A stretch of DNA of 44,104 bases from Syntrophorhabdus sp. (GCA_012719415.1 JAAYAK010000284.1:1-44104); one strand, 5' to 3'. Positions 20,428-40,242 are shown, counted from the first letter of the stretch. Translations and numbers: made by a program. Notes: generated by a model from the sequence alone, not told the origin.

Positions 20428-23220
20428 ATGGCGGATGACAGAGTCCAGCTTATCATAGAAGGAATTGATAGGGCCACGCAGGTCTTCAACGGTATCACGA
20501 AGCAACTGAAAGCGTTGCGAAACGAGGCGGACAAGGCAGGCACCGGCGTGGGAGAATCCTTTGCGAGGAGCAAGAGCCACCTCAATGCCGTAGAAAACCA
20601 GTTCGGTCGTATCAAGACCCAGATAATGGGTGTTGTTGCCGCTTGGAAACTCTTCGATATCGCCAGAGATGCCATCATGCTGACGAGCCGTGTGGAGACC
20701 CTTTCCGCAGTCCTCGGCGTTATGGGGCGCAACGTCCAGCTTTCGAAAGCCGAGGTGGCCGCCTATGTCGGCCAGGTCAAGGCCATGGGCATCACAACGG
20801 AGGCGTCCCAGCAAAGCATAATACGGATGGTTCAGGCCCAACTCGACCTCTCCAAGGCCGGACAGCTTGCACGGGTTGCCCAAGACGCGGCAGTTATCGG
20901 AAACGTCAACTCCTCTCAGGCTCTCGAGCAGATGATTCACGCGATTGTGACCTTGCAGCCGGAGGTCCTCCGAACCATTGGAATCACGGTCAATTTCGAA
21001 CAGGAATACAAGAAAGCGGCCGATACGGTCGGCAAGAGCGCAGACCAGCTCACCCAGGCTGAAAAGCAACAGATAGCCATGAATGCCGTTCTGGAGCAGG
21101 GAACGAAGATACAGGGTGCCTACGAGGCGGCAATGGGTACCGCCGGCAAGCAGCTCAAATCCATGGAGAGGTACACCGAGGAACTGAGACTCAAGCTCGG
21201 GGAGATAGGAAGCGGTGCATTCACGACGGTCATCTTTGAGGTGGTCGACGGCCTCAAAGAGTGGGACAAGTCACTTTCCGCCCTCAAGGAATCGGGGGAC
21301 CTCTCGCAGATGTCCGACGACCTTCAATACGGTGTCCTGGTGGCCCTCAACGACATCAAGACCCTCGCCGTGGACATCTGGAACGTCCTCAAGGAGTTCG
21401 GCCCCGTCGTTAAGCTCTTTCTCGAACTCATCGTCATGGCCGCCAACGGCTGGGGCGATATCCTGGCGGCTATTCGGCCAGTTACGGAGATAATGGGCAA
21501 ACTCATTGGCATGGGCTGGGACTTTGTACAGGTCCTTAAGAGCGCCGCGAATGTCTTGACGTCCATAGCTACGGGGGATTTTCAAGGACTCAAGCAGGCC
21601 CTCAGAGAGATCGGTTCGGCCGCGGGAGATCTGGCGAAAAAAACGAGCGAGGGTAGCGCCATGCTATTGCGGTTCCCTGAGAGCGTGGCCGATTCCCTTT
21701 TGGCAAGGGATGCGGCAAAACAGGCGGCAAGGAACAAGGTGGCTGAAGCGCGCGCCAAAAAGGAATACGAAAATGCCCAGCACATCCCTAGTGGTCTTGG
21801 AAAACCGACGTATGGTTCCGGCGAGACGTCCACAAAAAAAGGCGGCGGCAAGGGTGGCGAGAACGCCCTCGAGAGCTGGGCCTCCAAGCTCAGGGACCTT
21901 GACACCGATATACGGAAGGCCCTCTTTCCGGACGATGACCTATCCCGCAAGCTTGAAGACATCAGAAACAAATACGAAGATTTGATCGCTCAGGCCGGGA
22001 AGTATGCGAAAGAGCATGGCAAGGGTTTTGATACCGCCAAGGTTGAAGAGTGGCGCAAGACCATGGAACAGGCAGCCCGATCCGCCGACGCCGAGAAGAA
22101 ACTGAAAGCCTGGACGGACGTGGAGCAGCAGGTCACCGAGCGCACGGCTCCCGAGCTGGAACGACGTCTGGCAGCCGAAGATAAATTCATGAGGGAATCG
22201 GAGGAGAAGCTCAAGAAGGCTGGCTTCAGCCATGAAGAGATCTCCGAAAAGATGGTCCAGGTAACCGCCGCGGCGGCGGAGAAAAAGAAGAAGATCGAGC
22301 TTGACTACATTAACACGGTGATGGAAGCGGAGAGCCGCCGCTATCTGTCCCAGCTCGACATGATGGAGAAGGAACGTTCCGGATCGAAATTAGATATCAC
22401 CCGGCAGCGCATCTCCGTTTACCAGAGCATCCTGAGCGCGTATCAGCAGAACTGGGAGAACGAGACCGATCCCACGGCGAAGATCCTCTGGGCGGATAAA
22501 ATAGACGAGACGCGGTCCAAGCTCATCGATCTCAACATCACATTGAAAGAGCAGGACGGATTATTTACTGAAGGTCTCGGCAAGGGCCTGCGAGACTATC
22601 TCTGGGATATGAAATCCGTGTTCCAGCAGGGCGTGGAGATGGCCCGGGAGTCGGCCCAGGCGATGGAATCCGCCTTCTCCGACTTTTTCTTCGACGCCTT
22701 CCAGGGAAAGCTTCAATCACTGGCGGACTATCTCAACTCATTTCTGAAGTCTGTTCACCGGGCCCTGGCGAACGCGCTGGGACAGCAGGTGTCCACAGGT
22801 CTCACGTCCCTGGTGCAGGGCATTTTCTCCAGCGGGACGCTGTCGTCCACTGTAACCGGCTCCGTCGGCATTCCCTCCAGCGCCAACTACGTCCCTGGCG
22901 TGCACCACAGCGGGGGCGAGGTCAGAAAATTCATTCCAACCTTTCATGCGGGCGGCCTCAATGACGACGAGCGGCTGGTAATCAACCGCGTGGGTGAACG
23001 CTACATAACACGGGAGCAAAACGAATGGCTGACTCGTATGGCGAAGACAACCGAGGGGACACAGCCGAAGGTTTCACTTATCGTCAACAACAATACGGGG
23101 CAACCTGTCAAAGCAAGGCAGGAGACCACTCAGGTCAACCCTCAGGAGACGATCGTCACTCTCTGGCTCGATGCGTACAACCGGAACGCCTATGGCCTGA
23201 AGAGCGGTCTGGGGGGATAG
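20428..23220 (+). CDS. Tail tape measure protein
   Basis: The 930-residue protein begins MADDRVQLIIEGIDRATQVFNGITKQLKAL, typical of tape-measure proteins, and is largely helical. A hydrophobic stretch lies near residues 305-395 (VVKLFLELIVMAANGWGDILAAIRPVTEIMGKLIGMGWDF, in pieces). Charged coiled coils follow to about 790. The C-terminus (23161-23217) carries LWLDAYNRNAYGLKSGLGG, a motif found again at the ends of two early proteins of this prophage. Length implies a tail of roughly 140 nm at 1.5 angstrom per residue. GGGAGG precedes ATG 20428. Confidence 0.9.
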   Translation: MADDRVQLIIEGIDRATQVFNGITKQLKALRNEADKAGTGVGESFARSKSHLNAVENQFGRIKTQIMGVVAAWKLFDIARDAIMLTSRVETLSAVLGVMGRNVQLSKAEVAAYVGQVKAMGITTEASQQSIIRMVQAQLDLSKAGQLARVAQDAAVIGNVNSSQALEQMIHAIVTLQPEVLRTIGITVNFEQEYKKAADTVGKSADQLTQAEKQQIAMNAVLEQGTKIQGAYEAAMGTAGKQLKSMERYTEELRLKLGEIGSGAFTTVIFEVVDGLKEWDKSLSALKESGDLSQMSDDLQYGVLVALNDIKTLAVDIWNVLKEFGPVVKLFLELIVMAANGWGDILAAIRPVTEIMGKLIGMGWDFVQVLKSAANVLTSIATGDFQGLKQALREIGSAAGDLAKKTSEGSAMLLRFPESVADSLLARDAAKQAARNKVAEARAKKEYENAQHIPSGLGKPTYGSGETSTKKGGGKGGENALESWASKLRDLDTDIRKALFPDDDLSRKLEDIRNKYEDLIAQAGKYAKEHGKGFDTAKVEEWRKTMEQAARSADAEKKLKAWTDVEQQVTERTAPELERRLAAEDKFMRESEEKLKKAGFSHEEISEKMVQVTAAAAEKKKKIELDYINTVMEAESRRYLSQLDMMEKERSGSKLDITRQRISVYQSILSAYQQNWENETDPTAKILWADKIDETRSKLIDLNITLKEQDGLFTEGLGKGLRDYLWDMKSVFQQGVEMARESAQAMESAFSDFFFDAFQGKLQSLADYLNSFLKSVHRALANALGQQVSTGLTSLVQGIFSSGTLSSTVTGSVGIPSSANYVPGVHHSGGEVRKFIPTFHAGGLNDDERLVINRVGERYITREQNEWLTRMAKTTEGTQPKVSLIVNNNTGQPVKARQETTQVNPQETIVTLWLDAYNRNAYGLKSGLGG

Positions 23221-23223
23221 AGA

Positions 23224-23568
23224 ATGGACAGCTTCAATGAGGCATACGCAACACCGTGGACCTACGGGGCAAAGGGGGAGCATTACAAGCCACAGATCAG
23301 GACCGAAAAGGAGGCAAACTACGTCCAGGTTCGGTCCGCCGCCAGCAGGGCCCGTGAGAGAAGCATCCACCTGCCATGGGATCGGATCCCGATCGCAGAG
23401 TACCAGAGCATCATTACGTTCTTTGACAGCCATATTGGTGAAGCCTTCACCTGGACCAGCGAGGTCACCGGTACCACATATACCGTTGTCTTTGCGCAAG
23501 ACACTATCCCATACGAGGAGGTGTCTCACGGCATGAGGAAGATCGACGTCTACCTGGAGGAACTGTAA
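23224..23568 (+). CDS. Minor tail protein, gpM-like
   Basis: The 114-residue protein has the short beta-rich layout of lambda gpM-type tail-tip proteins (SAASRARERSIHLPWDRIPIAEYQSIITFFDSHIGEAFTW...TYTVVFAQDTIPY). It follows the tape measure and precedes the gpL-like gene, as M does between H and L. It forms part of the ring that closes the tail tube. The final ATG of its stop region (TAATG) starts the next gene. Confidence 0.8.
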   Translation: MDSFNEAYATPWTYGAKGEHYKPQIRTEKEANYVQVRSAASRARERSIHLPWDRIPIAEYQSIITFFDSHIGEAFTWTSEVTGTTYTVVFAQDTIPYEEVSHGMRKIDVYLEEL

Positions 23569-24203
23569 TGCCGCTGCCCATATCATCCCAGGCGATCCAG
23601 GAAAAGAACAAGCTGGAGGGAGGCGGTACCTGGATCATACTCCTCGATATCGACGTGCCCGGCCTCGAGGATAACATCAGGGTCACGAGCGACAACGAAG
23701 AGACCGTCTGGAACGGGAACACCTATGTGCCCTTCCCGTTCGAGATCGATGAGATCTCCGATTCATCGACCGGCGAGGTCCCCCGTGTAGACATCAAGGT
23801 GTCCAACATCACCCGGGCCATGGAGGGATACCTCCAGGATTACGACTACTACACGAAGGTCAACGGCTACAGCCCGATAGAGCTTACGATATCGGTGGTC
23901 CACTCGGCCCACCTCGATCTCACGGAACCGGAAACGGAATACGTCTTTCACCTGAAGCAGCCGAAGACGAACGCGAAATGGGCCACGTTCACCCTGGGGG
24001 CGAACAATCCCTTCAACAAGCGGTTTCCGCTTAACAGGCTCCTCAGGAACCGCTGTAGATATAAGCAATTCAAGGGAACGAGGTGCGGCTACACGGGTGC
24101 CGCCACATCCTGCAACAGGACCCTTGCCCGCTGCCGGGAACTGAATAACTCCGCACGGTTCGGAGGATTCCCCGGGGTCGGTAATTCGCCGGTGTTCGTA
24201 TGA
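23568..24203 (+). CDS. Minor tail protein, gpL-like with four-cysteine cluster site
   Basis: The 211-residue protein resembles lambda gpL. The N-terminal ~150 residues are beta rich (WIILLDIDVPG, VPRVDIKVSNITRAMEGYL), and the C-terminal part has four cysteines at residues 163, 173, 182 and 189 in LRNRCRYKQFKGTRCGYTG and CNRTLARCRELNN. In lambda gpL the corresponding cysteines hold an iron-sulphur cluster needed in the tail tip. ATG 23568 overlaps the previous stop, and the next gene overlaps in ATGA. Confidence 0.87.
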   Translation: MPLPISSQAIQEKNKLEGGGTWIILLDIDVPGLEDNIRVTSDNEETVWNGNTYVPFPFEIDEISDSSTGEVPRVDIKVSNITRAMEGYLQDYDYYTKVNGYSPIELTISVVHSAHLDLTEPETEYVFHLKQPKTNAKWATFTLGANNPFNKRFPLNRLLRNRCRYKQFKGTRCGYTGAATSCNRTLARCRELNNSARFGGFPGVGNSPVFV

Positions 24204-24622
24204 GGGATCTGCGTGACTTCATAGGCTGTCCCTTCCGCAACCACGGCCGCGGCGAGATCGATCCCGAGACCAGGAGGCCTCTCTACGATTGCTATGGTCT
24301 CTTCATGGCCATCTACAAGGAATGCTATGGCATCACCTTGCCGGATTATACAATCTCCTGCTTCGCAACCGAGGAGATCCGGGCACAGTTCGAGAAGGAA
24401 GTCGGCAGGTGGGAAGAGCTGCGGGAGCCTGAGACTCCCTGTGCAGTGGCTCTGGCTGCGAATACACATTTTCCCGGTATGGTCTGCCACTTCGGGATCT
24501 ACGTGGGCTATGGGAAATTCATCCATACGCTGAAGAAGGCCGGATCCATCGTTTCCCATGTGTACGACCCAGTCTGGAAGAACAAGATCAAAGGATACTA
24601 CCGGTGGAAAAGATCCTCCTGA
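24200..24622 (+). CDS. Tail assembly peptidase, gpK-like NlpC/P60
   Basis: The 140-residue protein keeps the NlpC/P60 core of lambda gpK: Cys31 in YDCYGLFMAIY, His97 in VCHFGIYVGYGKF and a second His109 in FIHTL. It likely acts as a peptidoglycan-opening peptidase or an assembly factor at the tail tip. The N-terminal Mov34/JAB part of gpK is missing, so this is the short form. It overlaps the gpL-like gene by four bases and the I-J gene by 19. Confidence 0.87.
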   Translation: MRDLRDFIGCPFRNHGRGEIDPETRRPLYDCYGLFMAIYKECYGITLPDYTISCFATEEIRAQFEKEVGRWEELREPETPCAVALAANTHFPGMVCHFGIYVGYGKFIHTLKKAGSIVSHVYDPVWKNKIKGYYRWKRSS

Positions 24623-27600
24623 CCTGTATCAAGAATCCCTTCAAGCCTCTCGAGAGCAGGATAGTGATGGAGGTGGACCGTCTTCCGTCCATGCGTGACG
24701 CCGTGCGGGAGTTCTTTCCCGCTCCCCTGGACAGCGGTTTTGACGTTGTTGTGTCGCTGACCACCAGGACGATGCCATCACGGATCCTGACGGATGAGGA
24801 GATCGATAGAATACTGCCGACAGCCGGAGATTCGATCGTATTCGCAGCCGTGCCCCATGGTGGGGACGGGGGTGGAGGAGGCGGCAAGGATATCGTCCGG
24901 ACTGTCGCGATGCTCGCAGTTGTGGTGGCGGCTTCCATAGTGACGGCCGGTGTCGGATCGGTCCTCATGGGGGGGTCGTTTATCGGCGGCGGCATGATCG
25001 CGGCAACAGGCACTGCAGCATTTTGGGGTGCCATGGCAGGAATGGGGGTCATGGTCGCCGGTGGTCTTCTCGTCAACGCAATCCTCCCGGTGTCATCATC
25101 TGTCGACTCGGTAGATGCGTCCTATGCCTCCGCCGACTACAGCAAATCGAACACCTATGGTTGGGATCCGTCGCCTAACGGCGACCAGGAAGGAGGAATG
25201 CTCGGCGTCCTTTACGGGACCCACCGGGTGACGCCCCATATCAACGGGCGATATGTTTCGACCAGCGGTAACTCCCAATACCTCAATGTCCTGTATGCAG
25301 TGTGCGAAGGAGGACAGACCGGCATCGATTCCATAAGCGACGTCGAGATCAATGATAACCCGGCCGCCTACTACAGTTCCGTCGAGCTCGTGACCCGCCT
25401 GGGGACAAACGACCAGGCAGTAATCCCGTATTTCAACGACACCATTCTCGACACGCCCGTTGGCGCCAGGCTTTCAACGTCCCATGTGACACGTCAGACG
25501 ATGGGGAACACCGCTCAGGGGCTGGGTGTCGGCATATACCTGCCCTATGGCTTGTACTACGCGAACGACAACGGGGGATTGACGGCCCAGTCGGTAACCT
25601 ACCAGGTCGAGTACAAGAAGTCTGAGGATCCCGATTGGTCGATATGGGGGACCTACACCGTCACGGCCGCGCAGAACAGCGCGATAAGAGAATACAGGAG
25701 GATCGATAATCTCGATCCCGGGCAATACGATCTCCGGGTTGTCCTGACATCAGCCCTGCCCACCGGGTCACGCTACAGGAACGACACGTACTGGGAATAT
25801 CTGGAAGAGATCATTTATGACGATTTCACCTATCCGGGTGTGGCCCTGCTGGCCGTGAACGCGCTCGCCACGGATGAGCTCTCGAATTCCACTCCCCGCG
25901 TGACGTGCCTTGGATCCCGTCTCACCGTGCCGGTCTGGACCGGCTCGGCCTATGAGAACAAGCCGGCCACGAATCCGGCCTGGGCCGCCTACGATATCGT
26001 CCACAACGACGAATACGGTGGAGCGGTCCCGTACTCCCGAATCATCTACCAGAAGTTCCTGGAGTGGGCTGACTGGTGCGACGAGAAGGGCTACACATGC
26101 AACATCTATTTCGACACGATGAAGAACCTGAGGCGGGCCCTCGACACGATATGTACGCTAGGCCGCGGCAACGTTCTGCAGATAGGGTCGAAATTCACCT
26201 GCATCTACGACGGTGATGTCTTGCCGGCGGACAGTTTCCTCTTCAGCATGGGGAACATCAACAGGAACTCCTTTGGCGAGGAGTGGCTGCCCATGGACGA
26301 CCGGGCGAACCAGATCGAGGTGGTCTACTACGATGCCGAATTGAACTACAAGAAGCAACCAGTTGTTGTCGAGCAGGATGGCTTCGATGATCTCGGGGTC
26401 GACGTGTCACCGAGACAGGTGGACCTGGTTGGCTGCACCGATCGGACCATGGCGATAAAGCATGGCAAATTCCTGCTGAACTGCAACAGGTACATCACGC
26501 TCACGGCTTCGTGGGAAGCCGACGTGGATGCGATCCACTGCCTGCCGGGAGATATTGTACGGGTGGCTCACGACGTACCTCAATGGGGCTACTCGGGACG
26601 CGTTGTGTTGGCACGGGCGAACACGGTGACGCTGGACCGGGAGGTCACGCTGGAACCGGACACCACCTACGGGATTCAGGTGCAGCATTACGAAACAGAC
26701 GTACTGGAAGAACTGACTGTCGAGGCTGTCGCCGCCACCAAGACGACGAGCGAGCTTATCCTTACGAGCTCGTGGGAGAACACCCCGCCCCCCTTGTCAA
26801 ACTATAGCTTTGGTGAGGTAGGCAGAGTCAGCAAGCTGTTCAGGATCACGAGGATCGCCAAGGCGCAGGATATGAAGAGGAGAATCACCGCGGTCGAGCA
26901 CGTGGCGGATGTCTACAATGATTCGGTTGCCGTGCCGGCGATCTCAAACGCATCGAGCCTTACTGTGCTGGCGGGCCTCAATGTAACGGAGATATTCCGG
27001 AAGAGCCCTCTTGGAACGTTCGAATCCGTGGCTTCTTTGACCTGGAGGGGCTACGCCCTCCAATACTGGATATACCAGGCGAGTTCCGCTGCGGGACCGT
27101 GGACGCTACTGGGATCCACCACAAACCGGTCATACGAGACCGATCCGCTGCTCAAGGAAGGGGCCCTGTACTATTTCTGTGTGACGGCCGACAAGAGCAT
27201 AGAGAGCGGAATTGTCAAGAGCGTCTACATCTACGGCAAGACACGCGCACCCTCGGATGTTCAGAACTTCCGCGCCAGTCCGGCCCAGGGGGGTTTGATA
27301 CTGTCGTGGGATGCGGTGGCGGATCCGGACATCGACTATTACCTGCTCAAATTCTCGCAGAATACCAGCGACACCTGGAACAAGATGACGGAGATGTCGA
27401 AGGTTTACGGCACTTCCGTGACCCTCCCAGCTGCCCTGTCCGGAAAGTACGCCGTCAAAGCCGTGGATCTCAATGAGCCTCAGAACGAGAGTGAGAACGC
27501 CGCCTACATCGTCACGGACGTGCCCACGGTGTTGCACTGGAACGCATACCGGGAAGACATAGAAGAACCTACCTTTTCGGGGACGAAGACAGGCCTCACG

Positions 27601-28272
27601 ATCATCAACGGTTGTCTCTATCTCGACACTATCCTGGGGCTTGACGACATCGAGGAGGTGGACGCTCTCGAGGATTTTGATTCCCTCGACTCGGGCTACG
27701 TGACAGAAGGGACCTACGAACTCGAGGAACTCGACTTCGGGAGCATCCAGACGGCCAGGTGCAGCATGCTGGTCGAGTTCTCCGGCTTCGACCGGTCACA
27801 GTCATTCGACGACATTAGCGATTTTGATGCGATCGAGAACTTCGATGGGGACACGGCCGGAGCGACCATCAAGACGCAGATCTCCACGAGCCGCGACGGA
27901 GTGTCATACTCAGACTGGATGGATTTCGTTGTCGGTGACTTTACGGCGCGCTACATAAAGCGCCGGGTTGTGATGACAGCTCCGGACGCCACGCTCGGGA
28001 TCCTCATATCGGCGATCCATTCCTACGCCGACATGCCGGACAGGAGCGAGTCCGGACAGGATGTGGACTGCGGCACCGGTGGTATCGCGCCGACATTCAC
28101 AACGCCGTTCATGGGCAAACCCCGAATTGGAGTAACCATACAGGGATGGCAAAATGGGGACTATCCGTACCTCGATCCGAGTCTCATAACAACGGATGGT
28201 TTCAGTCTTGTCATAAAGAACGGCACGTCACCAGTTGAACGGCTTGTCGACTGGACGGCCGCAGGATACTAA
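24604..28272 (+). CDS. Tail tip and host-recognition protein, gpI-gpJ fusion
   Basis: The 1222-residue protein starts (GTG 24604) with about 90 residues like the tail assembly protein gpI, then a glycine-rich hinge (GGDGGGGGG) and a hydrophobic stretch at about 100-165. The J-like part follows (YGWDPSPNGDQEGGMLGVLYGTHRV at about 182-206 and the tail-hub domains). Two fibronectin-III-like domains lie near residues 800-880 and 885-975. The C-terminus has repeated acidic short motifs (LGLDDIEEVDALEDFDSLD, then FDDISDFDAIENFDGD). It forms the central tail spike. No Shine-Dalgarno is obvious. Confidence 0.88.
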   Translation: MEKILLTCIKNPFKPLESRIVMEVDRLPSMRDAVREFFPAPLDSGFDVVVSLTTRTMPSRILTDEEIDRILPTAGDSIVFAAVPHGGDGGGGGGKDIVRTVAMLAVVVAASIVTAGVGSVLMGGSFIGGGMIAATGTAAFWGAMAGMGVMVAGGLLVNAILPVSSSVDSVDASYASADYSKSNTYGWDPSPNGDQEGGMLGVLYGTHRVTPHINGRYVSTSGNSQYLNVLYAVCEGGQTGIDSISDVEINDNPAAYYSSVELVTRLGTNDQAVIPYFNDTILDTPVGARLSTSHVTRQTMGNTAQGLGVGIYLPYGLYYANDNGGLTAQSVTYQVEYKKSEDPDWSIWGTYTVTAAQNSAIREYRRIDNLDPGQYDLRVVLTSALPTGSRYRNDTYWEYLEEIIYDDFTYPGVALLAVNALATDELSNSTPRVTCLGSRLTVPVWTGSAYENKPATNPAWAAYDIVHNDEYGGAVPYSRIIYQKFLEWADWCDEKGYTCNIYFDTMKNLRRALDTICTLGRGNVLQIGSKFTCIYDGDVLPADSFLFSMGNINRNSFGEEWLPMDDRANQIEVVYYDAELNYKKQPVVVEQDGFDDLGVDVSPRQVDLVGCTDRTMAIKHGKFLLNCNRYITLTASWEADVDAIHCLPGDIVRVAHDVPQWGYSGRVVLARANTVTLDREVTLEPDTTYGIQVQHYETDVLEELTVEAVAATKTTSELILTSSWENTPPPLSNYSFGEVGRVSKLFRITRIAKAQDMKRRITAVEHVADVYNDSVAVPAISNASSLTVLAGLNVTEIFRKSPLGTFESVASLTWRGYALQYWIYQASSAAGPWTLLGSTTNRSYETDPLLKEGALYYFCVTADKSIESGIVKSVYIYGKTRAPSDVQNFRASPAQGGLILSWDAVADPDIDYYLLKFSQNTSDTWNKMTEMSKVYGTSVTLPAALSGKYAVKAVDLNEPQNESENAAYIVTDVPTVLHWNAYREDIEEPTFSGTKTGLTIINGCLYLDTILGLDDIEEVDALEDFDSLDSGYVTEGTYELEELDFGSIQTARCSMLVEFSGFDRSQSFDDISDFDAIENFDGDTAGATIKTQISTSRDGVSYSDWMDFVVGDFTARYIKRRVVMTAPDATLGILISAIHSYADMPDRSESGQDVDCGTGGIAPTFTTPFMGKPRIGVTIQGWQNGDYPYLDPSLITTDGFSLVIKNGTSPVERLVDWTAAGY

Positions 28273-28282: not shown

Positions 28283-29482
28283 ATGCAACACGACTACGAC
28301 ATCACCACCGCGGATGCAAATACCGGAGCAACGATCAGGGCGGCGATAAACGCAGCCCTCAAAGCCCTGGCCACCCTGAACGAAGGTGCCGACGAGCCTG
28401 CAGCGACCTTCCCGAACATGTTCTGGCCCGACCTTACGAACAATCTTCTGAAGCGTAGAAATCCAGCCAATACAGCATGGATAACGATGGGTACCCTGTC
28501 CGACATCTATCTGGGCCTGGCTGCGACCTTCGACGAGAATAGCTTCACCGAGTCCCAGCAGATCGAGGGAGATGCGCTTCTGCTCAGGCTGAACGATACA
28601 GGGGCATCGGGCGAGGAGTGGGCGATCAGATCGGACGGAGGGAACCTGGAGATCGTTCTGAACACAGGAACCGAAAGCGCCCCCGTGTGGACCGTGCAGG
28701 CGCGGATAGACGTGAACGCCCTGAGGATCGGGAATGGCGCCTCGGCGGACATCGATATAGTGGCCAACAACGATGCGGGCAACAAACCCAGGCTCAGGTA
28801 TCAGGCAGCGGGGTCGAAATGGCAGTATTCCAATGACGGGACGACCTTCAACGACATAGGAGGATCAGCCAGTAGTCTGCCGACAGGGGGTACAACAGGG
28901 CAGGTCTTGGCAAAGACGACCGGGGCGGACTACGACGCCGGGTGGATCACGCCCGCGAATACCGGGAAGTTGCAGAGGGCAATCTTTGGCAGTTCCGGGA
29001 CATTCACATTCCCCGCGGGCACGACTGCCAGCACGGTGTTCAAATTCACGATTACGGGCGGCGGCGCAGGCACATACTGGGGCACGGGTAACTATTCCAT
29101 CGGGGGTGGCGCAGGCGCAACGGCCATAGTATGGCTGTCGGGCTTCACGGCAGGTCAATACATTAACGTCGTCGTTGGCGCAGGTGGCGGTTATGCGACG
29201 CACGGCGGAGCCAGCTACATTTCCTCGGGCAGTGCTCCCATTACAACCGTATCAGGGGGTGGCGGATATCATAATGGTGTCGGGGGCAGCGGGAGCAACG
29301 GGCACATCAATATCCCTGGCGGGTACGGCAAGGGCATCGGCAACTACAATGAAGGATTGATCGGCGGAAACTCGGTCTATGGCAGTTGGCCTGCATATGG
29401 GGCAGGAGGGAGCTACAATACTACCGATGCCAATGGCAGAATTGGTCAGCAAGGTGTCGTAGTAGTGGAATGGGTGCTCTAG
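28283..29482 (+). CDS. Tail fibre with glycine-rich tip domain
   Basis: The 399-residue protein has an N-terminal anchor (MQHDYDITTADANTGATIRAAINAALKALATLNEG) shared with the next gene, repeats in the middle, a collagen-free linker, and a C-terminal domain with glycine blocks (TGGGAGTYWG, GGGAGAT, GAGGGYATHGG, SGGGGYHNGVGGSGS) like the polyglycine adhesin tips of T2/S16-type fibres. These blocks pack as polyglycine helices, and the loops between them bind receptors. GGGAGG lies before ATG 28283, right after the I-J gene. Confidence 0.82.
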   Translation: MQHDYDITTADANTGATIRAAINAALKALATLNEGADEPAATFPNMFWPDLTNNLLKRRNPANTAWITMGTLSDIYLGLAATFDENSFTESQQIEGDALLLRLNDTGASGEEWAIRSDGGNLEIVLNTGTESAPVWTVQARIDVNALRIGNGASADIDIVANNDAGNKPRLRYQAAGSKWQYSNDGTTFNDIGGSASSLPTGGTTGQVLAKTTGADYDAGWITPANTGKLQRAIFGSSGTFTFPAGTTASTVFKFTITGGGAGTYWGTGNYSIGGGAGATAIVWLSGFTAGQYINVVVGAGGGYATHGGASYISSGSAPITTVSGGGGYHNGVGGSGSNGHINIPGGYGKGIGNYNEGLIGGNSVYGSWPAYGAGGSYNTTDANGRIGQQGVVVVEWVL

Positions 29483-29491: not shown

Positions 29492-30760
29492 ATGCAACAT
29501 AGCTACAACATCACGAACGTCATTGCCAAGGGCGGTGTAGCATATCGAGCGGCGGTCAATGCTGCTCTGCAGGCCCTCGTCTCAAACAATCTCGGGGAAG
29601 AGGCCACGGCGACTCCGTATGTGGGCATGCTTCAGTGGTTCGATGAGGGGACTACGTGGATCCTCAAGGCCTACACGGGCGTAGAGGGGCATGAATGGGT
29701 GACAATCCTCACCATCGAGACCAGCACGGGGACCGTGACTTTCTCCGAGGAAGGAATCGCCTTCGCCACGGCCTCGGAGGTCCTTGCCGGAGCAATTACC
29801 AACAAGATCCTAGCCCCTTCAACCCTCAATGCCGAACTCGTCAAGAATTTGAAACCCGTGGTGAATGCGAGCGTGAACAAGCTCGACCTCCTGACGAAGT
29901 CGGGAGGAGCCGTCCCGGATTCGGACAACGTCATAACGGTGGCCATCCCGGACGGCAACGGCTACACGTTTCGCAAGAGATCCGGGGCCTACCTGTCAGG
30001 CACATCACAGTTCATCCTTGCCGACGCTACGGCCTACTGGGGTGCCATGAGCGGAGCGGATAAGATAAAGGTTCACAAGTACGCCATCTTTGACGGAACC
30101 GGCATCGTGTGGGCCCTCAGTCGCTTTGCTGGCTTTCATAATGTTCCCGCTACCACGACACCAGGCGATGATGATTATGTCCTTCTGGAAGACGGAAGCA
30201 CGTACACGCGAAGCGCCTCACATCACTGTGTTTGTGTCGGTGAGGCCTGGGCCAATTACAACACCGCGAATACCCCCAATTGGACGTTCTATGATTCATC
30301 GACGTCCGCGGAACTGGCGCCGCAGGTCATCTGGAATCCGAAAAGCGACTACGGCAAATCCGTCAGCCTTGCCACCACGATCACTCAGGCATCAGATATA
30401 GGTCAATCGGTTGTTTCTGCTGTCGTCAAGCAAGCGGGTGTCTATGAGATATCATATCGACATTCCGCATCCTCCAGCGCTGGAGCATATTGCATCGGTG
30501 ACGTGATTATCAAAACGGGATCAGCCACCTACGGATCTGCGACGATACAATCGCAAAATCGACACTGCAACATAGACGATGCCGGCATCGCCGTCGGAAA
30601 CTCAGACTCGATGTCAACGTACAAGAAGAAAGTGTACCTTAATAATGGGGATACCATTCACGGCGGCAGTAATGTCTATTCAGCATCTGGGAACAGGAGC
30701 GTACACGGGAATGACACTTATATTGGATGTACCATGTTATCGTTCAGGAGGACTGACTGA
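29492..30760 (+). CDS. Second tail fibre, paralogous anchor
   Basis: The 422-residue protein shares its N-terminal ~35 residues (MQHSYNITNVIAKGGVAYRAAVNAALQALVSNNLG) with the fibre just upstream, but the rest differs: VTFSEEGIAFATASEVLAGAITNKILAP, then a beta-rich C-terminal domain (about 290-422) ending in YIGCTMLSFRRTD, similar in style to C1q/TNF-like or jelly-roll tips. Two fibres with common anchors could bind different receptors. GGAGGG lies before ATG 29492. TGATG couples it to the next gene. Confidence 0.78.
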   Translation: MQHSYNITNVIAKGGVAYRAAVNAALQALVSNNLGEEATATPYVGMLQWFDEGTTWILKAYTGVEGHEWVTILTIETSTGTVTFSEEGIAFATASEVLAGAITNKILAPSTLNAELVKNLKPVVNASVNKLDLLTKSGGAVPDSDNVITVAIPDGNGYTFRKRSGAYLSGTSQFILADATAYWGAMSGADKIKVHKYAIFDGTGIVWALSRFAGFHNVPATTTPGDDDYVLLEDGSTYTRSASHHCVCVGEAWANYNTANTPNWTFYDSSTSAELAPQVIWNPKSDYGKSVSLATTITQASDIGQSVVSAVVKQAGVYEISYRHSASSSAGAYCIGDVIIKTGSATYGSATIQSQNRHCNIDDAGIAVGNSDSMSTYKKKVYLNNGDTIHGGSNVYSASGNRSVHGNDTYIGCTMLSFRRTD

Positions 30761-33936: not shown

Positions 33937-33947
33937 CTTAAGCTCGT

Positions 33948-33961: not shown

Positions 33962-33970
33962 ATTTTTTGC

Positions 33971-33999: not shown

Positions 34000-34070
34000 T
34001 GTTTCCAATGGAAGGGACCACTGGAAAATCCGAAAAAAGAAAGAAAGGCACCCTGAAGGAGGCCATCTCC

Positions 34071-34274
34071 ATGAAGCAGGTCGGCATCCGCGATCTGTCC
34101 GAAAAAGACGAAGAGCAACTCGTAGAGACGATATTCAACATGCTGGTGGGCTTGGAAGAGGACGTTGCCCTGGACATACTTGCTTCTGTTGAGGGTGACA
34201 TTGAGAATAATCTCATTGTTGCTCCGCGGCTGAAGGACCGTTTACACCAGGACGCAGGCTATGACCGCACTTAA
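34071..34274 (+). CDS. First early protein after PR, unknown function
   Basis: The 67-residue acidic protein (MKQVGIRDLSEKDEEQLVETIFNMLVGLEEDVALDILASVEGDIENN) is helical and has no HTH, so it is not a Cro in sequence, although it has Cro's position. ATG 34071 follows AAGGAGG at eight bases. ATG 34008, two bases from the predicted transcript start, would add 21 basic residues as a leaderless form. The end overlaps a convergent minus-strand gene by 62 bases. Confidence 0.65.
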   Translation: MKQVGIRDLSEKDEEQLVETIFNMLVGLEEDVALDILASVEGDIENNLIVAPRLKDRLHQDAGYDRT

Positions 34275-34434
34275 AACAATATCTGGCCGTTTCAGTCCGG
34301 ATCTTCTCATTGCAGGAAGGGTTTGGACACTTGGCGATCAATTCCGTGCCGCACTCCTCGCAGTATTTGACGTCCCCTGCGTTCACGCCATACATGCAGC
34401 TGGGACATATTCTCATACGATTCTGCCTTGGCAT
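34213..34434 (-). CDS. Double zinc-ribbon protein
   Basis: The 73-residue protein has four zinc-knuckle pairs: CPSC near residue 10, CEEC near 25, CPNPSC near 36 and CFKC near 53, the DZANK-type double ribbon. AGGAG lies eight bases before ATG 34434. It faces left, against the early promoter, and its 3' end overlaps the previous early gene. Small ribbons like this bind nucleic acids or proteins. The four ordered Cys pairs make a chance frame very unlikely. Confidence 0.75.
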   Translation of the reverse strand: MPRQNRMRICPSCMYGVNAGDVKYCEECGTELIAKCPNPSCNEKIRTETARYCFKCGHSLRPGVNGPSAAEQQ

Positions 34435-34454
34435 ATCTCCATCTCCTGCACACA

Positions 34455-34519
34455 GGGCAAGGGGGTCACGTCGAAAGACGTGTCAAATAACCCTTCTAGG
34501 TATCCCCTTGCCTTTCTTT
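34455..34519 (+). ncRNA. Structured RNA element with GNRA hairpin, attenuator-like
   Basis: A 12-bp outer stem (34455-34466 with 34502-34513, two G-U pairs) encloses a 6-bp hairpin CACGTC-GAAA-GACGTG (34467-34482) with a GNRA tetraloop and a single-stranded joining part. TTTCTTT follows the outer stem, so on the plus strand it could end transcription. It begins with CACAGGGCAA, which recalls the c-di-GMP riboswitch, but the conserved part after the hairpin does not match. It precedes the 34548 frame by 28 bases. Confidence 0.5.
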
Positions 34520-34547
34520 ATCAAGCGTATCCCCAAAGGAGTCTCTC

Positions 34548-34829
34548 ATGAGCCCTTCTAAAACCGTGACCCTTAAAATAGTTCCCGATGCCAAGCCCAT
34601 TCTTCTAATCATTAAACTTCTTTGCCGTGCTGTGAACATCAGCAAGACCCCGATCGAGCTTGGCGAAGATTTGTCTGAACTGGTTCGTATCGAGACGGAT
34701 CACGGTTCCGCACGCGCAGGTGAACTTCACGTTACCCTTTACCCATCTGACAGATTTCTTCGCCACGCGGCCGCATTTCTTGCAGACAAGCTCGATCTCG
34801 ACGCCGTCAAGGACATCGGCCATGAATAA
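34548..34829 (+). CDS. Possible small early protein opposite a zinc-ribbon gene
   Basis: A 93-codon frame begins at ATG 34548 behind AAAGGAG, a good ribosome site. It starts MSPSKTVTLKIVPDAKPILLIIKLLCRAVNISK, and the rest runs antisense to the zinc-ribbon frame 34605-34823, so most of it could be the mirror of that gene. The start signals are better than chance, the sequence is otherwise unfamiliar. Only one strand may be real here. Confidence 0.35.
   Translation: MSPSKTVTLKIVPDAKPILLIIKLLCRAVNISKTPIELGEDLSELVRIETDHGSARAGELHVTLYPSDRFLRHAAAFLADKLDLDAVKDIGHE
34605..34823 (-). CDS. Small zinc-ribbon protein
   Basis: The 72-residue protein has one zinc ribbon, CKKCG near residue 15 and CACG near 35, set in IELVCKKCGRVAKKSVRWVKGNVKFTCACGTVIRLD, pieces of which look like known ribbon scaffolds. 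The helical end is DTNQFRQIFAKLDRGLADV. GGAGGAGG lies six bases before its ATG (34823-34821). That start overlaps the plus-strand ATG at 34822 in the sequence CATG. It is one of three small minus-strand genes in this stretch. Confidence 0.65.
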   Translation of the reverse strand: MADVLDGVEIELVCKKCGRVAKKSVRWVKGNVKFTCACGTVIRLDTNQFRQIFAKLDRGLADVHSTAKKFND

Positions 34830-35187
34830 CCTCCTCCAAACCCTCAGAAACGAGTCCTTCCGTGCCCGGGAGACGGTCCACAGATTGAAGGCCCGGGTGC
34901 TGAATGAACGGGCCGGGCTGGAAGCGGATCCGCTTGTGAGAGAAATCCGCCTCGCTAAGAGCCGCCTCGAACTGGCCAGGGCTGAACGCATCAAAGCAAG
35001 GATGGAAATCTCCTCTCCGCAACCTCATAAGGGTCCTCTATCCTGGTGTCCTCGCCGCGTCAGAGGGTATATCCAAAGACTACTCATTGCTCTTTTTCTC
35101 GATGCATACGACCGGAACGTAGGTTGCCTAAAATCAGCTCTAGAAAACTTTCCGTGCGATCCACACAGAGGCTCTCGATGTCACTGA
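34822..35187 (+). CDS. Small helical early protein with tape-measure-like end motif
   Basis: The 121-residue protein starts at ATG 34822 (AAGGA eight bases upstream). Residues 1-65 form a long basic helix region (LLQTLRNESFRARETVHRLKARVL, in pieces). The end carries LFLDAYDRNVGCLKSAL (35092-35142), the motif seen at the C-terminus of the tape measure and of the 39433 protein. The last 103 bases overlap a minus-strand gene. Function unknown. Confidence 0.6.
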   Translation: MNNLLQTLRNESFRARETVHRLKARVLNERAGLEADPLVREIRLAKSRLELARAERIKARMEISSPQPHKGPLSWCPRRVRGYIQRLLIALFLDAYDRNVGCLKSALENFPCDPHRGSRCH

Positions 35188-35347
35188 AAGACAGGCCCAT
35201 AATCTCCTCTCTCTTTACGGTGAGCTTAACCGAGCATGATCTGCTTTGCTCACCTATCGCAACGTCGTGTTCATATATGCCAATCTCAACACGCTCTAAT
35301 TGCGCGCCGCGGGCACCCTTGAGAGAGACTGCGACCGAAATAGGCAT
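35084..35347 (-). CDS. Small early-region protein, minus strand
   Basis: The 87-residue protein (MPISVAVSLKGARGAQLERV...) reads as a small beta domain with a helical end (LSFSDIESLCVDRTESFLELIL). AAAAGGAGGTG lies four bases before ATG 35347. Together with 34605-34823 and 34213-34434 it may form a leftward transcript of small genes; upstream ATG 35461 is in frame but has no ribosome site. No family is recognised. Confidence 0.55.
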   Translation of the reverse strand: MPISVAVSLKGARGAQLERVEIGIYEHDVAIGEQSRSCSVKLTVKREEIMGLSFSDIESLCVDRTESFLELILGNLRSGRMHREKEQ

Positions 35348-35379
35348 CGGCACCTCCTTTTCGCCGTCAACAAAAACCT

Positions 35380-35441
35380 CCCCCGCCCGTACACGTGGCG
35401 GTCTTTTCCTTCGACAAGATGATTCTGTCACGGGGCGGGGG
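35380..35441. repeat. 9-bp G+C-rich inverted repeat
   Basis: CCCCCGCCC (35380-35388) and GGGCGGGGG (35433-35441) are exact reverse complements with a 44-base spacer. They lie upstream of the CII-like gene and of the leftward small gene. They could bound a regulatory region or form a long-looped hairpin. No gene on the plus strand is evident from 35188 to 35520. Confidence 0.4.
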
Positions 35442-35520
35442 CTGATGTCAAATAGTTTCATGAGTATAGAGTCACATCAAAATGGCAGGGTTTCAATTAT
35501 GCATCAAGGGGGAGGGTGTA

Positions 35521-35982
35521 ATGCACTCATATGAAGCCATGCAGGAGGCAATTCAAGGAAGGACCGTCGACCATGCAAAGGCTCTAGGTGTTTCCGTGAG
35601 CCTGGTAGCGAAGTGGCAGGAGCCGCACGTTGATTTCACGGACTCAGGCGCTTACAATCCCCTCGATAGGATAGCCACAGTTCTCGAGACGGCTCTTCGC
35701 CTGGGCATCCCACGCCCACACGCTCTCTCTCCCATCTACTATTTGAACCATCGCTTTGACCTGGTTTGTTTTCCCTTGCCCGCTCACGGCGCCGGCACCG
35801 CGGTGAACGATGAGCTCATCAAGACGATTAAAGAATTCTCCGACCTCGCCCAGGCCACGTCCGAGGGCCTCATGGACAGCAGGATCTCGCACATCGAGGC
35901 GAAGAAGATCATCCGGGAGGGTCGGGAGGCCTTGAGGGCGATCGGTGCACTCCTGGAGGTAGTCAAGGAGGCGATAAGATGA
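35521..35982 (+). CDS. CII-like phage regulatory protein
   Basis: The 153-residue protein resembles phage regulators of the CII/CP76 type. The N-terminal part has an HTH (YEAMQEAIQGRTVDHAKALGVSVSLVAKWQEP), then NPLDRIATVLETALRLGIPRPHALSPIYYLNHRFDLVCFPLP, the pattern of that family, and a helical end. It would influence the lysis-lysogeny choice or early gene expression. GGGGGAGGGTGTA precedes ATG 35521. It overlaps the next gene in ATGA. Confidence 0.75.
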   Translation: MHSYEAMQEAIQGRTVDHAKALGVSVSLVAKWQEPHVDFTDSGAYNPLDRIATVLETALRLGIPRPHALSPIYYLNHRFDLVCFPLPAHGAGTAVNDELIKTIKEFSDLAQATSEGLMDSRISHIEAKKIIREGREALRAIGALLEVVKEAIR

Positions 35983-36293
35983 CCTCAAAAAATTTTTGCT
36001 CAAAAGCTCGTGTCATCGTTTCTGAGGACAATGATTTATCACTTTTGACCACAAGTGAGGGGGACCTTTTTGAGGAGATCCTTAACGGGATCCTCGTGGC
36101 CGTCATCATCTTCGTGGTCGTATGGATGATCCTCGCAGAGATAGGCAATAATCCGAATTACCGTAGTGGGGCAGCCCGGCCCGGCCGGCAGCTTGGCCTC
36201 CACGAATACTACGCTATTGAGGGGGCCCGCGCACCTTCTGATCATCACCATGACCGCGGGCTCCCTCGCAATGAGGAGACCTTATGGAAATAA
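35979..36293 (+). CDS. Small membrane protein, unknown function
   Basis: The 104-residue protein has a soluble start, one membrane segment at about residues 34-54 (EEILNGILVAVIIFVVVWMIL), and a basic, His-rich tail. It overlaps the CII-like gene in ATGA and the sliding-clamp gene by 10 bases. Its role is unknown; superinfection exclusion is one possibility. Confidence 0.62.
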   Translation: MTSKNFCSKARVIVSEDNDLSLLTTSEGDLFEEILNGILVAVIIFVVVWMILAEIGNNPNYRSGAARPGRQLGLHEYYAIEGARAPSDHHHDRGLPRNEETLWK

Positions 36294-37432
36294 CCATAGA
36301 TCGCCAGTACCTGCAGAGCAAGGTTGATATCGTCAAAGCTGTAACGAAGCACAAGAGCCTCCTCGCCGTTACCCGGTCCGTGCTCATCGAGCTCGACGGA
36401 GAGCATGGCAAGATATCCGCGACGGATCTCGAGACGTCCGCCATCACGGGTTTCGCTGGTGCGAACGGTGACGAGAGCCTCAAGATCGTAGTTCCCGCCG
36501 GCACTCTGTCGGACATCCTCGCGAGCATCGGAGACCAGGAGATCACGCTGATCGTCGGGGACGGAGAAAATGTCCTGAAGATTGAGCAGGGCCGGGTGGA
36601 GATCGGCCTCGCCCTCATGGATCCTGAAGAGTTTCCGGACATTGAGGTCCTGAACGATACGGAGGCCTTCCAGATAGCTGCCAAGGACATCCTGCGCGGT
36701 TTGGGAAAGGTCCTTTATGCCGTATCCGCGGACGACAAACGCTTCATCCTTACCGGCGTCCTCATGCAGGCCAAGGGCGGAGAATTCAGGATGTGTGCGA
36801 CGGACGGCTTCCGGATGGCCCTTCTGAAAAAGGAGGTACCCGACCTACCTGATTCTCCCCAGATTGTCATACCCGGGAGGAACATCAGGCTCCTGAGGGA
36901 GATCCTGGACGAGAACGCGACCGTTGGAGTGATCATCAACGAGGCAAAAGTCCAGTTCATGACGACGCAGGCGACCATCATCTTCCGCACCCTGCAGGAC
37001 GCATACCCGAATTACGAGAGCATCCTTGCGGCCACCGGCACCCACAATATAGCTTTCGCCAAGCGCATCCCGTTCCTGGAATGCCTGTCCAGGATGGCGG
37101 CGCTTGCCACGAAGAACGATCCCGTCAAGCTCACGAGAACCTCGGCCGGAGGCCTGACGGTCCGGATGGAATCCGAAAAGGGCTACGCCCAGGAAACGAT
37201 CGATTGCGAGTTCAAGTCCTCCGACGAGTTCGATTTCGCCTTCAACCTGAAATATCTCCTCGACGCCGTGGAGCATATCGACAGCGACCAGCTCGTCATA
37301 CGCTACCCCGGGGCCTACGGGGTAGTGGTCCTGGATTCTGTCGACTACGTCTGCGGTGTCATGCCGATCCGGACGACCGGCGACTGGACCCCCGATCGAA
37401 CAGCAGGCCAAGGCCGGCGGAGGTCAGGATGA
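36284..37432 (+). CDS. dnaN: Phage-encoded DNA polymerase III sliding clamp (beta subunit)
   Basis: The 382-residue protein has the three repeated domains of DnaN. It begins MEITIDRQYLQSKVDIVKAVT with LLAVTRSVLIEL, has SADDKRFILTGVLMQAKGGEFRMCATDGFRMAL in the second domain and ends in YVCGVMPIR, the counterpart of the bacterial MPMR-type C-terminus, followed by an extra basic tail of about 19 residues. The clamp holds the polymerase on DNA. GAGGAG lies before ATG 36284. Clamps are rare in lambda-like phages, so this phage may use its own clamp with the host polymerase. Confidence 0.9.
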   Translation: MEITIDRQYLQSKVDIVKAVTKHKSLLAVTRSVLIELDGEHGKISATDLETSAITGFAGANGDESLKIVVPAGTLSDILASIGDQEITLIVGDGENVLKIEQGRVEIGLALMDPEEFPDIEVLNDTEAFQIAAKDILRGLGKVLYAVSADDKRFILTGVLMQAKGGEFRMCATDGFRMALLKKEVPDLPDSPQIVIPGRNIRLLREILDENATVGVIINEAKVQFMTTQATIIFRTLQDAYPNYESILAATGTHNIAFAKRIPFLECLSRMAALATKNDPVKLTRTSAGGLTVRMESEKGYAQETIDCEFKSSDEFDFAFNLKYLLDAVEHIDSDQLVIRYPGAYGVVVLDSVDYVCGVMPIRTTGDWTPDRTAGQGRRRSG

Positions 37433-37707
37433 GTGAGATCGGAAGGGAGATCTTCGTCAAGAGTGTTCTTCCCCTGGAACAGCGGGAGGATTCGCTGCTT
37501 TTCGAGATGAGTTTCACAGACGCCGAAGGGAATGCATTCAAGTCCCGCTTCTTCGTACGAAACCACAACGTGGGCCTCTTCAATATGGCCCTCAGCAAGA
37601 TGCGTCCCCTAACAACGGCAAGCGTTTCCCATACTTCCCCCAGGGGCCCGGCTCTCCTATCCGGAGGCCGGGCCTCCAACAACACCGGAGGTCAGTCGTG
37701 CCCGTAG
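37429..37707 (+). CDS. Small early protein after the clamp gene
   Basis: The 92-residue protein (MSEIGREIFVKSVLPLEQREDSLLFEMSFTDAEGNAFKSRFFV...) starts at ATG 37429, which overlaps the clamp stop, with GGAGGT ahead. The first ~60 residues look folded. The end is low-complexity because it holds GC-rich inverted repeats (GGCCCGGC and GCCGGGCC at 37645-37674) and the ribosome site of the ParB gene. No family recognised; a single-strand binding or clamp-associated role is speculative. Confidence 0.65.
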   Translation: MSEIGREIFVKSVLPLEQREDSLLFEMSFTDAEGNAFKSRFFVRNHNVGLFNMALSKMRPLTTASVSHTSPRGPALLSGGRASNNTGGQSCP

Positions 37708-39431
37708 CCAAGAAGGCAACCAAGACATCGGGAACCAGGAAGAAAGCTCCAACCAAGAAGCCGGAGAAGGTCCGGCCGGTTAGCGAGGATATCCCCAAGA
37801 CCCATGTTATCTCACACCTTGCACTGGATGAGATCCTGCCGAACCCCAGGAACCCGCGAAAGACCTTCAATGATGTACCCTTCACCGAGCTCGTCTTGTC
37901 GATCCAGGAAAAGGGTGTGCTGCAGCCCATCATCGTCCGGCCGCTTGTGGACTCCGAGAGCGACAGAAGGAAGTACGAGATCGTAGCCGGTGAGAGAAGG
38001 TGGAGAGCGTCGGTCACTGCAGGGATGGTCACAATCCCCGCGATCATCCGGGAGCTCACCGACCGGGAGGCCTTCGACGTCATGGTCATCGAGAACCTTC
38101 AGAGGGAGGACCTCGATCCCCTCGAGGAGGCTCGGGCATTCGAGGCCTACGCGACAGAGGGCGGCGATGTAGAGGACCTCGCCAACAAGATCGGATCCGA
38201 TCCCCGGTACATCCGCCGGCGGGTGCGGATCCTGACGTTGCCCGAGGAAATCTTGACAGGGTGGCGTGACGGCAAGGTATCCCTGGGGCATCTCGAGCAG
38301 CTCATGAGACTGTCGCGCAAGGAAGATATACTCGAATGCTACAAGAAGGCAACCGACGAATACAGTCCTTGGTCGGTGGCCGACCTAAGAGAGGAGATTG
38401 ACGACCGCTCTCCTGAACTCAGCACCGCCCTCTTCGACACGGGAAACTGCGAGACTTGCACCATGAACACGTCCATCCAGGGAGGTATCTTCGGGACCGA
38501 CTTCACCGCCGAAAAGGCCCTGTGCCTCAATCCCAAATGCTTCAAGGAAAAGCAGGTCAACTACCTCACGGAACACTGGAAAGAGACAGAGGCCGCGGCA
38601 GAGTTTCAGACCAATGGTTTTGAGTTGGTTGAGGATATCAATTACGCGGACTATAGCCCTTTCTACTCGCACCATACCGACAAGCTATCCGCGTGCACGG
38701 AATGCTCGAAGCTTGTGTCGATCCTCGAACTGAGCGGCCACGTCCGTCTTGGCAGGGCGTGCATGGGCAGCAAGGACTGCTATCGGGCGGTCTTATCCGG
38801 AAAAGATGAGTCCGGATCCGGGGCCAATGGCAAGAACACCAGGGTGAATAACATCGGCCCCGAGTTCCAGGACAGGTTTTACCGGGAACGGGTCCCCGTA
38901 GAGGCGGCCAGAATGCCGTTCGAGGATGAGCATATCCTCCGCCTCATCGCCCGGAGCCTTCTCTCGGCGAGCTCCAAGAGCACCGAGGAATTCAAAAAGG
39001 CCTTCGGCGTCAAGGGCAGCTGGTATGAAGACAAGGAGAAGATATGGATTGCCCTGGAGGCACTTTCCAGTGATGATCTCATCCACTGGATCCGGAAGAC
39101 GGCTCTCTATTTGACCCTCGAAGACGTCCAGGCCGGTTTCGATATGCCGATGAAGCATGCTATCGGTAGGCACTTCGGGCTTGATCTCGCTCGGGACTGG
39201 ATTCTTCACAAGGAATACCTGCAGCGCAAGACGATCCCGGAGATCCTCGCCATCTGTAAGGACCTGAAGCTCCTCGAGGGCCCGGAGGTCAAGACGTTCG
39301 CGGCAACGAAGCTCCGGCTCAAGACTGAGAAATACGACACCCTCAGAAAGAAGGACCTGATCAGGCTCATTCTCGAATCCGGCATAGATCTCACGGGAAA
39401 GGTGCCCAAGGAGATCCTGAAGACAAAATGA
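37698..39431 (+). CDS. ParB-like protein with zinc-binding cysteine pairs
   Basis: The 577-residue protein has a basic N-terminus, a ParB/Spo0J core (about residues 35-180: LDEILPNPRNPRKTF, GVLQPIIVRPL, GERRWRA at 98-104, VIENLQREDLDPLEEARAF) and an HTH region. Later it has four cysteine pairs (CETC, CLNPKC, CTEC, CMGSKDC) that probably bind zinc, and a C-terminal helical part. ParB-core proteins are CTP-dependent clamps on DNA. No ParA partner is seen, so it may work in replication or regulation, not partition. GTG 37698 follows GGAGGT. Confidence 0.85.
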   Translation: MPVAKKATKTSGTRKKAPTKKPEKVRPVSEDIPKTHVISHLALDEILPNPRNPRKTFNDVPFTELVLSIQEKGVLQPIIVRPLVDSESDRRKYEIVAGERRWRASVTAGMVTIPAIIRELTDREAFDVMVIENLQREDLDPLEEARAFEAYATEGGDVEDLANKIGSDPRYIRRRVRILTLPEEILTGWRDGKVSLGHLEQLMRLSRKEDILECYKKATDEYSPWSVADLREEIDDRSPELSTALFDTGNCETCTMNTSIQGGIFGTDFTAEKALCLNPKCFKEKQVNYLTEHWKETEAAAEFQTNGFELVEDINYADYSPFYSHHTDKLSACTECSKLVSILELSGHVRLGRACMGSKDCYRAVLSGKDESGSGANGKNTRVNNIGPEFQDRFYRERVPVEAARMPFEDEHILRLIARSLLSASSKSTEEFKKAFGVKGSWYEDKEKIWIALEALSSDDLIHWIRKTALYLTLEDVQAGFDMPMKHAIGRHFGLDLARDWILHKEYLQRKTIPEILAICKDLKLLEGPEVKTFAATKLRLKTEKYDTLRKKDLIRLILESGIDLTGKVPKEILKTK

Positions 39432-39432
39432 T

Positions 39433-40242
39433 ATGCCTCTGATATGCACAAAATGCGATCGCCCCGAGGGACAGAGGGAAGGCAACGAGATTCATTGCCG
39501 ATATTGCGGCAACGTAGCTATAGACGGAGTCGAGCCGAGATGGCCGTTCAAGGAACAGGAGATTACGAAGCGAGACGTGCCAGTAACCGGTCAGATCCTG
39601 CCCGGAGCCTGTTGCAGCGAGGGGCAAAGCCCGCTGCAGCTTGCAGAGAGTGTTAGGCCAAAGGAGGCTGATATGGGAAAGAAGAAGTGCAGCGTCGAAG
39701 GATGTGAGAAACAGTCCTGGGTCGATGGCCTCTGCCACCGGCATTATACCGAGATGCGCGGCGAGTATGTACCGAAGAGGAAATATCCTCCCCGGACAAA
39801 GCACGCCACGAAGGATCCCGCTCCTGAAACGAGAAAGGCCCCGGCTGAAACGAAAGCCCCAAAACCCGAGACCAAAGGACGGAAAAGGCGGCCCGCGATT
39901 CCTGCCGGCTTTCCTGCTGGCGTTCTGGACGGAGAGGCTACGCCCCCATCTCTCGAGCCGGGCGATACCGCTGTCATCGTGAAGTTCACGGGCTGCGATC
40001 AGCTTCTGGAGGACCTCAGGGTTCTTGCGAAGAAGGAGTTCCGGAACATTGATGCTCAGATCCTGTACATAGTAGACCAGTATCTCAAAATGCCGGTGCT
40101 CGACGGCGCCGCTGCGCCTCTCACAGGGAGGATTGACGCGGTCTGCATTGACAGCGAAGAGAGGGTTGCCTCCCTCTGGCTCGATGCCTTCAACCGCAAC
40201 GTCTGCGGTTTGAGGAACGTGCTGGGGTCCAAAAGTGCCTAA
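39433..40242 (+). CDS. Zinc-ribbon protein with RHH-like part and tape-measure-like end
   Basis: The 269-residue frame has an N-terminal zinc ribbon (CTKC...CRYC), then after an internal ATG 39673 with AAAGGAGG a second Cys/His segment (CSVEGCEKQSWVDGLCHRHYTEM), a Lys/Pro/Ala-rich linker (about 110-160), and a ribbon-helix-helix-like block (DLRVLAKKEFRNIDAQILYIVDQYL). It ends in LWLDAFNRNVCGLRNVLG (40174-40227), shared with the tape measure. Translation from 39673 gives 189 residues and has the better ribosome site, so two products may be made. Confidence 0.68.
   Translation: MPLICTKCDRPEGQREGNEIHCRYCGNVAIDGVEPRWPFKEQEITKRDVPVTGQILPGACCSEGQSPLQLAESVRPKEADMGKKKCSVEGCEKQSWVDGLCHRHYTEMRGEYVPKRKYPPRTKHATKDPAPETRKAPAETKAPKPETKGRKRRPAIPAGFPAGVLDGEATPPSLEPGDTAVIVKFTGCDQLLEDLRVLAKKEFRNIDAQILYIVDQYLKMPVLDGAAAPLTGRIDAVCIDSEERVASLWLDAFNRNVCGLRNVLGSKSA

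Follow-up and report, generated by a model that had tools for sequence, protein, structure and literature searches.

Prophage and genes in the window

The window analysed here is the whole stretch of 44,104 nucleotides from Syntrophorhabdus sp., and it carries a prophage of about 42 kb that is bounded by att repeats of 70 nt and sits at a tRNA-Lys(CTT) gene (Table 1). The tail genes stand in the order of lambda (tape measure, M, L, K, J), and the stop codon of the gene for the tape measure protein (TMP) and the start of the M-like gene are 3 nt apart and in frame. Two adjacent genes located 3' of the J-like gene begin alike (28283-28368 and 29492-29577, 67% identity over 87 nt), which suggests a tandem duplication.

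Gene B is located in the rightward early region, and gene C is flanked by a ParB-like gene and the integrase gene and lies downstream of the phage beta-clamp gene. The phage-encoded DNA polymerase III beta clamp and the ParB-like protein, which has a Rho_N-like end, are encoded at 36284-37432 and 37698-39431. Judged by gene position alone, B and C would be expressed early. Their lengths (Table 1) and their location in the part of the prophage that encodes beta clamp, ParB and integrase set B and C apart from TMPs, which are long, tail-located products of a late operon.

An earlier note on this DNA had described three similar peptides, encoded at 23161-23214, 35092-35142 and 40174-40227, at or near the C-termini of the TMP, protein B and protein C, here called segments A, B and C and listed with wider bounds in Table 1. 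All three are indeed encoded in frame at these coordinates, and they end 1 (A), 14 (B) and 4 (C) residues before the stop codon, so that segment B is near the C-terminus and not at it.

Table 1. Features of the prophage, with coordinates in the window.
Feature	Coordinates	Strand	Remarks
att repeat, left	81..150	+	in tRNA-Lys(CTT)
TMP gene, 930 aa	20428..23220	+	weak Pfam Tape_meas_lam_C match, E 0.0035
TMP C-terminal module, residues 880-930	23065..23217	+	55-82% identical in TMPs with unrelated or barely related bodies
Segment A, putative terminal docking helix, ETIVTLWLDAYNRNAYGLKSGLG	23146..23214	+	within ORF 20428-23220; same position as lambda gpH 818-842 helix
M-like distal tail protein gene	23224..23568	+	phrog_14 minor tail, E 8e-5; Pfam Phage_min_tail only 13 bits
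L-like hub protein gene	23568..24203	+	Pfam Phage_tail_L, E 1.4e-13
K-like NlpC/P60 gene	24200..24622	+	Pfam NLPC_P60, E 2.8e-8
J-like central fibre gene	24604..28272	+	phrog_31, E 4e-147
Cassette with B and antisense ORF (approximate)	34516..35405	.	missing from related phage on G006:C105
Gene B, 121 aa	34822..35187	+	no family assigned; 74% identical, ungapped, in L003/G099
Segment B, RLLIALFLDAYDRNVGCLKSALE	35077..35145	+	within ORF 34822-35187
Antisense ORF, 87 aa from ATG behind AAGGAGGTGCCG	35084..35347	-	overlaps segment B; open and ungapped in L003 too
Gene C, 269 aa	39433..40242	+	zinc ribbon 1-33, zinc-finger-like 84-105, ribbon-helix-helix (RHH)-like 177-221, TMP-type tail
RHH-like domain of C	39961..40095	+	several relatives end after this domain
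C-terminal extension of C, residues 222-269	40096..40239	+	unaligned with L003/L004 past 221; no counterpart in G005, G062, G102, G203
Segment C, ERVASLWLDAFNRNVCGLRNVLG	40159..40227	+	within ORF 39433-40242; kept in G006:C105
att repeat, right	42092..42161	+	93% identity with 81-150

Likeness of segments A, B and C

The ungapped DNA identity was 42/54 nt for A/C (8.5 SD above the window mean), 35/54 for A/B (6.4 SD) and 30/54 for B/C. When the window was compared with itself by BLAST, A/C (23146-23214 against 40159-40227, 74% over 69 nt, E 2e-6) was the strongest DNA repeat after the att repeat, and A/B was the fourth (E 0.11). Among the 1275 pairs of C-terminal 45-mers from 51 predicted genes, A-C (score 88), A-B (58) and B-C (44) took ranks one to three, followed by a pair scoring 38. 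A held-out profile, made of TMP ends only with B and C left out, was searched against the whole 3.7-Mb genome, where it found C at E 4e-7 (32.4 bits, 38 positions) and scored B at E 0.0055 (19.2 bits), a value to be read against one unrelated chance match of 22 bits among 296 other genomes. A profile match in G203 contains a stop codon and was discarded as chance.

At the codon level, A and C use the same codon at 8 of their 12 shared residues (4.6 expected), and A and B at 5 of 11 (4.2 expected). The clear DNA similarity that had been claimed for all three segments thus holds for A and C and does not single out B. Taken together, the likeness among the three peptides is judged not to be due to chance, securely for C and probably for B.

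It is rather unlikely that only A and C are related and that B resembles them by accident, although the chance-level codon sharing, the self-BLAST value for A/B, the low scores of B with profiles that exclude it (10-17 bits) and a control with 100 shuffled windows, one of which gave 13.6 bits, all point that way. Against an accident stand the second and third ranks of the B pairs and the retention of B in G099, a genome in which the TMP carries the end as well. What mainly supports B is that its match lies within the same 42-kb prophage, and the right frame and the nearness to a C-terminus help. Given the chance-level codon sharing with A, B may be an older copy, a helix reached by convergence or, at lower odds, a coincidence; with less certainty than for C, protein B may carry a more diverged version of the TMP end.

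The cassette holding B is about 0.9 kb long, and its flanking positions 34515 and 35406 in the window map to 6638 and 6589 in L055. Compared with L003, the substitutions in gene B upstream of the antisense overlap are mostly at codon position 3 (11, 17, 29). The antisense ORF has a strong ribosome-binding site, lies inside the rightward early region and shares 104 nt with the 3' end of gene B. Within this overlap, the substitutions between the window and L003 spare the frame of gene B rather than the antisense frame, for which reason antisense coding was rejected as an explanation for the likeness; at A and C, there was no support for an antisense gene.

Exchange of the tape measure end with the tail-tip genes

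Segment A is the predicted terminal helix of a TMP end module of about 50 residues. The motif search over other phages that had been proposed found the motif again, at the ends of TMPs: in other viral contigs it forms the last ~20 residues of these proteins, whose open frames, where complete, have 807 to 1771 codons.

The TMP body of the window is 77-78% identical to that of L005/G005, and the comparison of the two phages gave 78% for the body, none for the TMP tail, none for M, 27% for L, 33% for K and 32-35% for J. The opposite pattern was found in G099 (L076), with no similarity of the TMP body and 76% for the tail, 82% for M, 82% for L, 71% for K and 74% for J, and in G006 and L066, again with no similarity of the body and 68% for the tail, 49-50% for M, 87% for L, 74-77% for K and 75% for J. 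Across G099, G006, L066, L065 and L077 together, the TMP ends are 68-82% identical, M 49-82% and L/K/J 68-87%, with bodies unrelated or barely related, and the more distant L063 (open frame of 1771 codons) still has 55% in the TMP tail and 47% in J. This is a double dissociation, in which the TMP end is exchanged with the tip genes and not with the TMP body. As M falls to 50% where the TMP end is still at 68%, the end goes above all with L, K and J.

Close TMP ends differ almost solely at synonymous sites (0 nonsynonymous to 6 synonymous nucleotide changes for L069/L072, and 1 to 7 for L074/L075), indicating that selection acts on the peptide. This bears on the reading in which the three segments share a DNA- or RNA-level element (a binding site, a recombination site or a regulatory RNA) and the peptides are a by-product. 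The same orientation at the three loci and the marked conservation of segment B DNA between the window and L003 would be in line with such an element, but the latter falls in the overlap with the antisense ORF, the DNA pattern CTCGATGCNTWCRACCGNAACG occurred in no viral contig, and the Rfam search gave no match except the tRNA. Together with the synonymous changes in the TMP ends, these results led to the rejection of this reading, which is considered very improbable.

The structure model of the TMP end had a mean pLDDT of 36, that is, very low confidence, and it placed helices at positions 125-147 of the last 150 residues with a pLDDT of about 50; the model of protein C was of similarly low quality (mean pLDDT 38). 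Both models were too poor for use or for a fold search, so that their helices at these positions carry little weight. No match to the TMP end or to C was found among solved structures, and INPHARED phages contained no relative of C or M and no meaningful match to the TMP end.

Because the TMP end travels with the tail-tip genes, docking to the tail tip, which the earlier note had suggested for the motif as a whole, is the best reading for segment A. From this linkage and from two published systems, the assignment of segment A as the part by which the tape measure end docks in the tail tip appears well supported. The end would sit in the lumen of the tail tip and pair the TMP with the M, L, K and J proteins of its own tip, which would explain why it is exchanged with them rather than with the TMP body. 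Lambda and TP901-1 are known examples of a TMP end with its tip partners, to which the double dissociation adds evidence from evolution that the last 50 residues of the TMP are its tip-specific part.

The probably appended end of protein C and comparison with known systems

The Cys and His residues of protein C are invariant in four relatives, and its architecture is shared by relatives. Residues 177-221 resemble a ribbon-helix-helix domain, a likeness that stays at the level of resemblance, since the scores against the Pfam families RHH_5 (13 bits) and ParD_like (13 bits) did not reach the cut-offs of 26 and 23. An assignment of C as an HNH endonuclease was rejected, because the PHROG matches cover only the zinc-finger-like part, residues 76-121 (E 2e-4 to 8e-4), and leave the catalytic HNH motif uncovered. 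L093, L094 and L095 (in G102, G062 and G203) form a small Cys-rich family related to C with a shared terminal RHH-like domain, VDFGKHVHVLREIEKLAEQQIRPVELQVIYML.

The relatives in G005, G062, G102 and G203 have Cys-rich parts and the RHH-like segment and reach a stop codon within about 10 residues after it, while L003 and L004 are 57% identical to C up to residue 221 and then have a different, shorter end. A decayed copy of the segment in the L003/L004 homologue was considered and dropped, the resemblance (SPVLEA-CG against SLWLDA...CG) being weak and inseparable from chance. Among the relatives of C, the TMP-type end occurs only in the window and in G006:C105, and the relative G006 carries two of the tags. 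As the other relatives lack it, the TMP-type end looks like an addition to C.

Over 69 nt, the DNA of A matches that of C at 51 positions and that of the G099 TMP end at 53, which, with the relatives of C that lack the segment, supports the recombination between loci that had been offered as one possibility. The DNA match and the same-codon excess of A and C fit an origin of the C segment in a TMP gene within this group and not convergence. Since the TMP end is widespread and the tail of C narrow in spread, we infer that the transfer ran from the TMP to C; the 26% difference in DNA between A and C suggests that it is old or that another TMP allele was the donor. In the proposed sequence of events, gene C would have gained at least 69 nt of TMP-end DNA, fused in frame at its end, before the phages of the window and of G006 split. 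That segment A is the docking end of the TMP and that segment C came from such an end are together regarded as probable.

Between the window and G006, the C gene has diverged by 9% and the core of the C segment holds an unchanged run of 66 nt, another such run being present elsewhere in the gene. The three changes in the segment all alter residues, which for this one close pair speaks neither for nor against purifying selection. These features bear on the possibility that illegitimate recombination left the segment in C (and B) as a mere scar, a 3' piece of the TMP gene that was joined in frame and is tolerated without a role. Relatives of C manage without the segment, B and C are by position not among the virion genes, and the tail of C departs from the TMP consensus at several constant or aromatic positions (A-to-V, Y-to-C), all of which agree with a scar and make it quite possible, if somewhat short of an even chance. 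The identity of the segment core despite the divergence of the gene, the occurrence of the same helix on two separate genes and the retention of frame and C-terminal position argue against a scar, subject to the second identical run. A retained protein-binding helix in C and B is favoured, with substantial weight left on the scar.

In the favoured reading of a retained helix, C and perhaps B may bind the same tip proteins as the TMP or the TMP helix itself, and C would then either travel with the tail or compete during tail initiation. Taken by itself, tip binding by C is a tentative proposal, somewhat less probable than the scar. The helix could also serve oligomerisation only, as a trimeric coiled coil like that of the TMP which does not touch the tail. 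Oligomeric action is usual for proteins with RHH-like domains, but RHH domains already dimerise, and the model of C lacks the confidence that such a reading would need. The lambda counterpart of the segment is a three-helix coiled coil (PMC10721106), which agrees with oligomerisation; overall this reading is unlikely. Still more doubtful is that C is a DNA-binding cargo or regulator plugged into the tail tip, borne in the virion and entering the next host with the TMP, the TMP end being a portable loading tag.

The portable end tag of the earlier note thus survives in part: the motif recurs as a TMP end and was probably appended to C, but it is not widespread, since outside this small phage group it was found only on TMPs in the collections scanned. 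In 99 genomes, the genome contigs and viral contigs, the tag profile had no convincing match other than TMPs, B and C, and a general bacterial or phage signal was rejected on this ground. Should the copy in C have a function, it would amount to a minimal signal, about 23 residues long, that brings a foreign protein to the tail tip of a siphophage or, alternatively, one that interferes with tail initiation. End modules of this kind are known, and the copy on a non-tail protein is a variant of which no description was found in the open-access papers searched.

Among the nearest counterparts is the terminus of the lambda TMP (gpH 818-842), which forms a three-helix coiled coil in the lumen of the tail tip (PMC10721106). 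In the lambda record this helix is preceded by VVINNDG, and the helix of segment A by LIVNNNTG; the two thus agree in their place in the protein, in a V-N-N-x-G stretch followed by a terminal helix and in the M-L-K-J gene order, but significant sequence similarity between them was not shown. To our knowledge, no second lambda protein carries the C-terminal helix of gpH.

In TP901-1, infectivity depends on the last 60 residues of the TMP, and when the last 30 are lost, heads alone remain, according to the available text of that report (PMC5099701), so that there too a C-terminal module of 50-60 residues is required to start tail assembly. TP901-1 belongs to another phage group with other tip proteins, and no copy of the module elsewhere in its genome was found in that text. 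Another activity joined to TMP sequence, which could ride in the tail, is also seen in the TMP-fused RNA polymerase of P23-45 (PMC10770324, available text) and in the TMP-related effector Tme of contractile injection systems (CIS) (PMC11126660). In both of these the whole TMP carries the extra domain, as far as the available text on P23-45 goes, whereas in C only the last helix is present, on a separate small protein whose delivery is putative.
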